Part shown: one piece after another, positions 40,411-43,478 of the stretch
How positions within the stretch are numbered: the stretch's first letter is position 1
Layout: every line of letters starts with the position of its first letter
Assembly (NCBI GenBank): GCA_013044265.1
Contig: JABEUQ010000033.1
Coordinates: 1-45,141, forward strand
Source: Acidimicrobiaceae bacterium
GTDB lineage: Bacteria; Actinomycetota; Acidimicrobiia; Acidimicrobiales; RAAP-2
Direction: 5' to 3'
DNA: 45,141 nt
Made by a program: the position numbers and the translations under genes
The notes under the pieces: generated by a model
The model's database searches: none
Told to the model about the DNA's origin: nothing
What the model saw: only the letters and a program-made list of their open reading frames with translations

Positions 40411-41184
40411 CTACACGTTCCACCATATTGTGGCGAGTTCACGCTGTAGCAACGGCGGATTTGCTTGCATGTACTCCAGTACTTCGCCCTCTCGCTCCTC
40501 GGGTAGACACAATCGCACCCGGTTGAAGTGAGCGGCTTGCTCAAGGTCCTGCTCAACGCGCATCGGACCATCCCAGTGCTCGATGGACGCTTCGATGTCC
40601 ATCTCTCTCAAAACGGCCATCAGGTCCTCGGGGGTGGGGGTCGAAGGACGTTCGAGCTGCCAGAAGTGACGCCACGCTCCCGAGAGAGTAACCAGGGGGT
40701 GATGACGGGGTAGCTCGAGCACCACGCGCTGGGTGGCGTGATCGCTGAGAGCGCGAAGGAACGGCACGATATCGGACACGTTGTAGACCACGTGGTGAGC
40801 CGTCACCACGTCGGCACGAGGCACTGCACTCGCCACCGCCGGCCAGAACCCAAGGTGCGTCTCAGCACTGAGCCCGCGAGCGGCAGCATTCGCCGCGAAC
40901 ATTTCGAGCATCTCACCCTGGTGATCCACTCCGATGACGCGCGAGGCGGGCGGGGTCAGCGCAAAGGCCGCGATGCCCCCGCCGCAACCGACGTCCAACA
41001 CCGAAGCGGACTCTCCCAACACTTCGCGCGCGCGACCGTGCGATGGATTGTTGGGGACCACCTCGGGCACGTTAAAGAGAACGGGCGGATGGATCCAGGG
41101 ATCCTCGCTGGCGAGTGCGAGAATCCCTGGAGGAATTGCCCACGCTTCTAGAGCATGGGCCCAAGCGGTAGCGGCGGAACTCAC
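40411..41184 (-). CDS. Class I SAM-dependent methyltransferase
   Basis: VLDVGCGGGIAAFAL; probable GTG start at 41184 overlaps the upstream sORF stop (GTGA). Confidence 0.82.
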   Translation of the reverse strand: MSSAATAWAHALEAWAIPPGILALASEDPWIHPPVLFNVPEVVPNNPSHGRAREVLGESASVLDVGCGGGIAAFALTPPASRVIGVDHQGEMLEMFAANAAARGLSAETHLGFWPAVASAVPRADVVTAHHVVYNVSDIVPFLRALSDHATQRVVLELPRHHPLVTLSGAWRHFWQLERPSTPTPEDLMAVLREMDIEASIEHWDGPMRVEQDLEQAAHFNRVRLCLPEEREGEVLEYMQANPPLLQRELATIWWNV

Positions 41185-41342
41185 CGATTGAGTAGCCGCG
41201 AGAAGAAACCGCCGGTAGAGGGCTCGGCGACACACGCACAACGATCAGCCTTGGCGACACCCTTGAGGGCTTGTTCGATGTGGTTGCCACAGCCCGCCCA
41301 AGTGGGCTTACCGCAACGACGACAAGTGGTCCGGTGACACAT
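41181..41342 (-). CDS. 53-aa Cys-rich small protein, not in supplied ORF track
   Basis: Manual translation MCHRTTCRRCGKPTWAGCGNHIEQALKGVAKADRCACVAEPSTGGFFSRLLNR*; GGAAG RBS; coupled to the downstream methyltransferase. Confidence 0.8.
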   Translation of the reverse strand: MCHRTTCRRCGKPTWAGCGNHIEQALKGVAKADRCACVAEPSTGGFFSRLLNR

Positions 41343-41399
41343 ACTTCCTACTTTCCTAGTTGGTTTTTGTTATTGGTGAAACACACAATCTCGTGATTC

Positions 41400-43049
41400 T
41401 CAGTGGCTGAGTGTCTCGAGTGTCGGGCTGAATGCGGGTGAGTGACTCCAGGTGGCGTATCCACCGTCGAGGTTGCGCACGTCCAGGCCCCATTGGTTGA
41501 GGATCTGAGTGGCGACGTGACCACGCTGACCGACCTGACAAAAGACCATGACTGGACCCTGAGCGATCTCGTCGCGTCGTTCGCGCAATTCATCAACGGG
41601 GATGTTGACGGCGTCGGGCAGCGATCCACGTTCGAATTCGCCACGGCTGCGCACGTCAAGAATTGTCACACCGCGAGAACGCAACTCCTCCACCTCGTGC
41701 CACTGTGCAGTGCGCTCCAGGCCCGAAAGGACGTTGCCCGCAACATAACCCAACATGTTGACTGGGTCCTTGGCCGAGCCGAAGGGCGGAGCGTACGCTA
41801 ATTCGAGGTCAGCGAGCTCCGCGGCACCAATACCCCCGCGAATCGCGGTGGCGAGCACGTCAATGCGCTTGTCAACGCCCTCGGTGCCAACACCCTGGGC
41901 GCCCAAAAGAGCTCCCGAGGTCGGATCAACGAGAATCTTCAGTGACATCGGCCGCGCACCCGGATAGTACCCGGCGTGCGAACTCGGGTGGGTGTGAATG
42001 GCGATAGCCGAACGCCCCGCAGTCGCCAGCCGCTTCTCATTCCACCCGGTCGTGGCGACCGTGAGGTCAAAAACCTTGACGATAGCGGTGCCTATAGTTG
42101 TCCGCGGCCGCACTGGCACCCCGGCGATGTGGTCCGCCACCAGTCGACCGTGGCGATTCGCGATATTGGCTAGTGGCACCAACGTGGCACTTCCGTCCAG
42201 GGCGTCCATCTTCTCAGCCGCATCGCCCAGGGCGTAAATAGTCGGATCACTCGTCTGGTTGAAACCGTTGACCGCAATACCGCCGCGTGATCCAATATCG
42301 AGTCCCGCCTCGCGCGCCAGAGCGGTATCTGGTCGAACGCCAATGGCCAGTACCACCAGGTCGGCATCAATCACTTCGCCCGAGGATAAATGCACTGAGG
42401 TCGGCCCAATCGTGCTGACACTGGTACCTAGATGTAGCTCTACGCCCTGTCGCACGACCTCTTCAGCCACTAAGGCCGCCATTTCCGGGTCGAGGGGGGC
42501 GAGTAGTTGCGTCGAGGCCTCGACAATTCGCGTCGCAATACCACGGTGCACGAGGTTCTCCGCAATCTCAAGTCCGATGAAACCGCCCCCGATGACGACG
42601 GCGTGTCGCGGAGCGTCCTGCACCACTGAAGTGAGTCGCTCCACGTCTTCGACAGTGCGCAACGGGTAGGCACGCTCAATACCGGGAATCGGTGGTACCA
42701 CCGGAGAAGCGCCCGGACTAAGGACGAGGGCGTCGTACGCCAACTCGTACTCCTCATCGCTGTCGAGGTTGCGCACGCGCACGCGACGGGCCTTCGCGTC
42801 GATGCTGAGCGCCTCGCTGTGCACCCGCACGTCAATGCGGAAACGTTCGTGCAACGACTCGGGTGTTTGCAGCAACAACGCGGCCTCGTCCTCGATGACG
42901 CCGCCCACGTAGTAGGGCAATCCGCAATTCGCGTACGAGACGTGCGCGCTGCGTTCGATCACCACGATCGAGGCGTCCTCGATCAGACGGCGCAATCGTG
43001 TCGCCACGGACATCCCGCCGGCCACTCCACCAATAATGACAACATTCAT
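41400..43049 (-). CDS. CoA-disulfide reductase-like FAD-dependent oxidoreductase with C-terminal rhodanese domain
   Basis: VVIIGGVAGGMSVATRLRR...SYANCGLPYYVGG; C-terminal rhodanese with VMVFCQVGQRGHVATQIL. Confidence 0.92.
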   Translation of the reverse strand: MNVVIIGGVAGGMSVATRLRRLIEDASIVVIERSAHVSYANCGLPYYVGGVIEDEAALLLQTPESLHERFRIDVRVHSEALSIDAKARRVRVRNLDSDEEYELAYDALVLSPGASPVVPPIPGIERAYPLRTVEDVERLTSVVQDAPRHAVVIGGGFIGLEIAENLVHRGIATRIVEASTQLLAPLDPEMAALVAEEVVRQGVELHLGTSVSTIGPTSVHLSSGEVIDADLVVLAIGVRPDTALAREAGLDIGSRGGIAVNGFNQTSDPTIYALGDAAEKMDALDGSATLVPLANIANRHGRLVADHIAGVPVRPRTTIGTAIVKVFDLTVATTGWNEKRLATAGRSAIAIHTHPSSHAGYYPGARPMSLKILVDPTSGALLGAQGVGTEGVDKRIDVLATAIRGGIGAAELADLELAYAPPFGSAKDPVNMLGYVAGNVLSGLERTAQWHEVEELRSRGVTILDVRSRGEFERGSLPDAVNIPVDELRERRDEIAQGPVMVFCQVGQRGHVATQILNQWGLDVRNLDGGYATWSHSPAFSPTLETLSH

Positions 43050-43058
43050 GTCTGCCTC

Positions 43059-43346
43059 CTAGGCCAGGCTCAAGAAGAGCTTCTGCAACTTCTTCGAAAC
43101 GACTTCAGAATCGACACTGGGGTCAGCAATGCATTCGCGCAGCGATGACGAGATCAGCATGAACGCCGCAGTGTGCACGGCCTTGGAGACTGCCGCCATT
43201 TGGGTTACGATCTCGTCACAGGAACGACCTTCTTCGAGCATGCGTACCACGGCACCCATTTGACCGTGTGCTCTCTTTACGCGCAGAGTGATCTGGTTGA
43301 GCTGGGCCTCGTCATCCAAAATGTGAACAGGTTCCGAATTAGCCAT
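43059..43346 (-). CDS. CsoR/RcnR-family regulator (DUF156), CstR-like
   Basis: RVKRAHGQMGAVVRMLEEGRSCDEIVTQMAAVSKAVHTAAFMLISSSLREC; AAGGAGG RBS. Confidence 0.9.
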   Translation of the reverse strand: MANSEPVHILDDEAQLNQITLRVKRAHGQMGAVVRMLEEGRSCDEIVTQMAAVSKAVHTAAFMLISSSLRECIADPSVDSEVVSKKLQKLFLSLA

Positions 43347-43371
43347 GCATCCTCCTTCAATTCGAATTTGT

Positions 43372-43387
43372 ATACCCCCTAGGGTAT
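43372..43387. promoter_or_regulatory. Candidate CsoR-family operator ATACCC-CCTA-GGGTAT
   Basis: Perfect 6-bp arms with 4-nt spacer, about 26 bp upstream of the regulator start. Confidence 0.75.
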
Positions 43388-43478
43388 CAAACATCTACAC
43401 CATCGTGACGTATCCAGGACTTTGGTCCTGGTGAGACCCCCTCCGCGATACCGTGCGCCCTAGTCCGAAGGGCTCGCC

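Follow-up and report, generated by a model that had tools for sequence, protein, structure and literature searches.

Which signal controls an operon in which a CsoR-family regulator precedes a CoA-disulfide reductase, and what do the small Cys-rich protein and the methyltransferase encoded behind them contribute? The window, by which we mean the whole 45,141-nucleotide stretch of an Acidimicrobiaceae contig (JABEUQ010000033.1) that was analysed, holds these four genes as tightly spaced open reading frames on the minus strand. They encode a CstR-like CsoR-family repressor of 95 aa (43059–43346), a 549-aa CoA-disulfide/CoA-persulfide reductase that carries a rhodanese domain (41400–43049), a Cys-rich protein of 53 aa whose family has no name (41181–41342) and a class I SAM-dependent methyltransferase (MTase) of 257 aa (40411–41184). 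The regulator and reductase genes are 9 nt apart (43050–43058) and the reductase and small genes 57 nt (41343–41399), whereas the small gene and the MTase gene overlap by GTGA (41184–41181), the GTG start of the latter lying over the stop codon of the former. The co-directional order, both gaps and the overlap had been described in an earlier sequence-only reading and are confirmed by the coordinates of the reading frames. The interval given there, 41181–43387, takes in the three upstream genes and leaves out the MTase, which reaches 40411. Chance can be excluded as the origin of this arrangement, because many other genomes show the same gene order. No sigma-70-type promoter or terminator was seen in the intervals separating reductase, small gene and MTase, in a scan that also misses the operon's own promoter and so carries little weight. 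Just past the end of the MTase gene, the opposite strand encodes a DCC1-like thiol-disulfide oxidoreductase (PF04134; 40017–40409, plus strand).

The regulator is a member of PF02583 (DUF156; E 4.7e-19, residues 34–103 of the longer frame). Its most likely start is the ATG at 43346, since this codon is preceded by GGAGG and a length of 95 aa is common among related regulators; the ATG at 43394 is disfavoured because the operator would then fall inside the gene. Aligned in register with CsoR, the CsoR-type Cys-x24-His-x3-Cys reads C43-S68-C72. The copper-sensing Cys-His-Cys site is therefore absent, with Ser68 instead of His, in agreement with the earlier observation that Ser replaces the copper-ligand His and both Cys are kept. 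Related regulators from homologous loci likewise keep both Cys and have Ser, Ala, Gly or Asn at the ligand position, with His in none; one odd match in this residue list is a misread frame position. The closest solved relative, 7mq1, is labelled copper-sensing, yet it has Asn at the position of the His ligand, and we take it to be pneumococcal CstR. By itself, the replacement of His by Ser is a weak argument, and it is the content of the regulon that carries the case for reactive sulfur.

The operator, ATACCCTAGGGGGTAT (43372–43387, a palindrome without strand), lies 25 bp before the regulator start codon and is a perfect fit to ATACCn6GGTAT. This equals the published operator of the sulfane-sulfur sensor ScCsoR from Streptomyces coelicolor (PMC7533328). 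In the source genome, ATACCNNNNNNGGTAT was found at ten places, and seven of these fit the stronger form ATACCCN4GGGTAT. These seven strong sites precede a rhodanese gene; the CsoR-family/CoADR operon itself; a sulfide:quinone oxidoreductase-like (SQR-like) gene followed by that for cytochrome bd subunit I (CydA); an MMPL transporter gene with a divergent YgaP-like membrane protein; a second YgaP-like gene with a DsbA-like gene on its other side; a thioredoxin gene; and two paralogs of the small protein. Copper efflux or binding genes adjoin none of the seven. The genome contains one PF02583 gene, although a second CsoR could be missing from the assembly, which is a draft of about 90% completeness (2.8 Mb, 246 contigs). 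Since a single CsoR-family gene coexists with seven strong sites, none of which stands before a copper gene, the regulon is best read as one for reactive sulfur and not for copper.

A CsoR-family regulator could also control a response to copper, as in the RicR/MymT regulon of mycobacteria, where a copper metallothionein is under CsoR-family control. The regulator would then be a copper-sensing CsoR and the small protein a copper metallothionein. Membership of PF02583, a small Cys-rich gene inside a CsoR-family operon and a weak NCBIfam similarity to RicR, far below the cut-off, are compatible with such a scheme. It is contradicted by the Ser at the ligand position, by a CoADR-rhodanese as the partner gene and by the count of zero copper genes behind seven strong operators. 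We rejected the copper reading on Ser68 and on the operator sites without copper genes, and regard it as extremely improbable. The CstR-type assignment combines the PF02583 fold, two Cys without the His, and a ScCsoR-type operator with a reactive-sulfur regulon. As far as sequence can tell, operator and regulon thus support the earlier proposal that a CstR-type sensor would suit this regulator better than a Cu(I) sensor, and a reactive-sulfur regulon that includes all four genes is very probable.

Some features of these regulons deserve mention in their own right. On contig 162 of the source genome (L147 in G000), the operator, the SQR-like flavoprotein and cytochrome bd subunit I are accompanied by a divergent TIGR04053 radical SAM gene, which places sulfide oxidation beside a terminal oxidase. 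The tandem paralogs of the small protein, 45 and 61 aa long, are found on contig 243 of the same genome (L030/L152). Strong ATACCCN4GGGTAT sites are unusually numerous in three other Actinomycetota with one CsoR-family gene each, G080 (33 sites), G045 (15) and G069 (12); a profile search found no match to the small protein in these three.

The reductase comprises PF07992, PF02852 and PF00581 and matches over its full length the Npsr/CoADR-RHD structures 3icr and 3nta and the CoA-persulfide reductase 8a56. Its score against TIGR03385, 452 bits, is below the cut-off of 578.8. In the reductase, C42 and C504 are the counterparts of C42 and C508 in CoAPR from Enterococcus faecalis. The protein therefore has what characterises CoA-persulfide reductases and Npsr, namely a CoADR domain joined to a C-terminal rhodanese, with a flavin-side Cys and a rhodanese Cys, and the rhodanese domain noticed in the sequence-only reading is borne out by both PF00581 and the structure matches. 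In this class, the rhodanese Cys takes up sulfane sulfur and CoA carries the sulfur to the flavin-side Cys (PMC7969121).

Do the small protein and the MTase belong to this system? We scanned about 85,000 species genomes and compared 80 homologous loci; as only best hits were taken, this set is biased towards close relatives. Within 3 kb of the small gene, 51 of the 80 loci have a CsoR-family gene and 51 have a CoADR gene. The reductase directly precedes the small gene in 35 of the 80, and in 17 of these 35 the MTase comes next. A less biased picture is given by an even sample of 247 genomes of the phylum Actinomycetota, 27 of which encode the small protein according to a profile search. Here, one of the searched sulfur-family genes or the MTase lies within 1.5 kb in 14 of 27 small-gene loci, four further loci have the operator directly upstream of the small gene, and the remaining 9 of 27 have neither searched sulfur gene nor operator nearby. 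A pooled Pfam and NCBIfam scan of the neighbours in this sample returned mixed families, sulfur-related only in part.

In 1.29 Mb of homologous loci we counted 82 copies of the operator, compared with at most 5 for permuted half-sites, and it lies within 300 bp upstream of 38 of 126 small genes, where permuted sites are never found. Across the 247 genomes, 17 of 27 that bear the small gene have a strong operator versus 52 of 220 others (Fisher p 6e-5, phylogeny ignored). Of the 27, 20 have a CsoR-family gene, and 17 of these 20 carry the strong operator, which is found in 0 of the 7 others (p 1e-4, phylogeny ignored). Because the operator tracks the CsoR-family gene in this way, the small protein is placed in the regulon where the regulator exists, yet it also occurs outside it; the seven genomes that lack both CsoR-family gene and operator indicate that it has a life beyond the regulon. 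The small protein and the MTase are found repeatedly next to these sulfur genes across Actinomycetota, and synteny and operator evidence uphold, at the level of genome comparison, the suggestion that the small protein and the MTase would be members of such an operon.

Four acidimicrobial genomes (G211, G167, G070 and G124; loci L007, L012, L010 and L020) encode the small protein without CsoR-family gene or operator, and in L012 its neighbours include thioredoxin and a DsbA-like gene. Several freshwater-type genomes encode a second version of the protein, shorter at 37–39 aa, from a gene that stands between the operator and the regulator gene; it was seen upstream of CsoR in L044, L046, L050, L053, L054, L056, L057, L061 and L102. 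In L153 (GenBank MT835623.1, labelled Bacteriophage sp., from human faeces), the small protein accompanies a TauE-like exporter, a metallo-hydrolase with rhodanese domains and a rhodanese, gene families judged by eye; this record looks like mislabelled bacterial DNA. Plasmid records that carry the small protein mostly list no gene for it.

The small protein matches no family in Pfam (searched up to E 10; best E 0.39) and has no match in NCBIfam. The family is nonetheless sharply bounded, since every profile match has an E-value of 4.4e-16 or better and nothing weaker appears. The window protein reads MC(x4)C(x2)C(x7)C(x2)H(x13)CxC and ends in FFSRLLNR. The sequences were selected on C2, C7, C10, C18 and H21 but not on C35 or positions 37/38, and Cys35 is present in 129 of 129 distinct sequences. 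Cys37 is found in 75 of these, His38 replaces it in 53, and one sequence has the His one place further on. This exchange suggests a metal ligand, and the sequence pattern as a whole suggests that the small protein binds metal. The predicted model (pLDDT 75) is a β-hairpin followed by a helix, with CxxC and CxxH positioned as in zinc-finger proteins. A fold search against the PDB gave no significant match, and zinc-finger folds are among the non-significant ones. We consider it somewhat more probable than otherwise that the protein folds around zinc with its Cys/His set.

Would such a protein simply hold metal? A metallothionein-like buffer for zinc or another metal, neither partner nor sulfur relay, would account for the interchange of Cys37 and His38, for the predicted hairpin and helix with CxxC and CxxH, and for the zinc-finger folds among the non-significant matches. 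However, the strict Cys/His spacing together with the conserved Trp15, Gly17 and Gly19 looks like one defined fold and not like a loose metal sponge, and a C-terminal hydrophobic/basic motif resembling FFSRLFGR, kept in 89 of 106 longer members, suggests a binding partner. A pure buffer is therefore rather unlikely in our view. As its preferred role, to which we give low confidence, the small protein would act as a partner, or a sulfur or thiol relay, for the reductase and the MTase.

The MTase belongs to Methyltransf_25, has the glycine-rich motif DVGCGGG and is predicted as a class I SAM-binding fold (pLDDT 93), the fold of MddM1/MddH-type enzymes. Solved relatives and fold neighbours are generic class I matches and give no clue to the substrate; the best weak NCBIfam match is UbiG-like. 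MTases from the operon share 49–67% identity with the window protein. On the tree they group away from scattered homologs, whose identity is 47% or less, although support for the whole cluster is modest (85/74). The wider homologs have no link to sulfur genes. In several genomes, the MTase gene starts at most 3 nt from the small gene or overlaps it. The association also persists in rearranged loci. In L059 the MTase is relocated, and an operator stands 15 bp before it; L110 contains a separate unit of operator, small gene and MTase; and in L075 (1–350) a decayed small copy, missing the first two Cys, stands before an intact MTase. In L020, from a genome without a CsoR-family gene, the order is reversed to MTase-small.

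Arsenite is one substrate that we rejected. ArsM enzymes have at least three conserved arsenic-binding Cys, and the MTase has only two invariant Cys, C67 and C226. A separate observation concerns L051, L053 (10243–10620), L071 and L102, where a membrane methyltransferase of the ICMT/PEMT/NnrU type lies immediately behind the small gene (confirmed with Pfam in L053 and L071, assigned by similarity in L051 and L102). In some of these loci, it precedes a thioredoxin and the soluble MTase, so that two unrelated methyltransferases share one operon.

Actinomycetota own sulfide-induced S-methyltransferases for H2S and methanethiol (PMC12904073), and it is this precedent that leads us to H2S or a thiol as the candidate substrate. 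On this analogy, the MTase may S-methylate H2S or a small thiol and so convert it into something volatile and less reactive, a tentative assignment to which we give clearly less than even weight. It may equally reside in the operon to act on another substrate, for instance a metabolite that reactive sulfur has damaged, or a protein, the small one included. The generic class I fold, for which no specific relative has been solved, the wide family outside sulfur loci and the pairing with the small gene even in reversed order and without a regulator (L020) all speak for this alternative. Linkage to H2S-producing and sulfide-oxidising genes and to a sulfur operator speaks against it, as do the second, ICMT/PEMT-type methyltransferase in some of the same operons and the known S-methylation of H2S in Actinomycetota (PMC12904073). 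Another substrate is a real possibility, if slightly short of an even one.

Taking H2S or a small thiol as the working candidate, the operon may function as follows. By analogy with ScCsoR and CstR, the repressor at 43372–43387 would hold the operon off until sulfane sulfur modifies C43/C72 and releases it. The reductase, if it works like its solved homologs, would take sulfane sulfur onto C504, transfer it via CoA to C42 and release H2S upon reduction by NAD(P)H. Other products of the regulon would then clear the H2S, chiefly the SQR-like protein encoded next to cytochrome bd. The MTase would perhaps remove H2S or a small thiol by S-methylation, and the small protein, probably zinc-bound, might serve the reductase and the MTase. 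In its most far-reaching form, which we offer as speculation and think improbable, a zinc-thiolate small protein, the most portable member of Actinomycetota sulfane-sulfur regulons, would take sulfur or H2S from the CoA-persulfide reductase and deliver it to S-methyltransferases of a new class, and persulfide sulfur would exit as methanethiol or dimethylsulfide under CstR-type control. If the MTase does act on H2S or thiols, the operon would connect the sensing of persulfides with the emission of volatile methylated sulfur from Actinomycetota, and such an activity would gain a regulator and an operon context. Since the small protein falls into no Pfam or NCBIfam family and yet in many genomes stands immediately behind the operator, it is a good marker of, and a biochemical question for, bacterial persulfide handling.

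A search of the open literature found no description of this set of four genes, and its parts resemble several known systems. The cst-like operon of E. faecalis (CstR, RhdA/RhdB, CoAPR; PMC9405070) also places a CoA-persulfide reductase under a CstR-type repressor; its reductase, like ours, ends in a rhodanese domain and has both catalytic Cys, and sulfurtransferases belong to both regulons. Neither a small Cys-rich protein nor a methyltransferase is described there, and here the operator is borne by SQR-like and cytochrome bd, MMPL, YgaP-like and thioredoxin genes. The S. coelicolor circuit of ScCsoR, persulfide dioxygenase, rhodanese and sulfite exporter shares the CsoR-like sulfane-sulfur repressor and the ATACCn6GGTAT site. 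Whereas that circuit is oxidative, through its dioxygenase, the one in the window is reductive, and the accessible part of PMC7533328 reports neither the small protein nor the MTase. Our reductase is a full-length homolog of the Npsr/CoADR-RHD proteins of Shewanella loihica (3nta), Bacillus anthracis (3icr) and Archaeoglobus (6pfz), which were studied as single enzymes outside such an operon (PMC7969121). The MTase shares with the H2S and methanethiol S-methyltransferases MddM1 and MddM2 its SAM dependence, its occurrence in Actinomycetota and a sulfide-response setting, and the soluble MddM1 is UbiG-like, as is the best weak NCBIfam match of the MTase. MddM1 is shorter, however, with 210 aa compared with 257 aa, and the consulted sections of PMC12904073 describe no regulator or operon link. 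Set against these systems, the sensor and the reductase are already known, and the small protein and the MTase are uncharacterised, recurrent additions to the CstR/CoA-persulfide-reductase operon.
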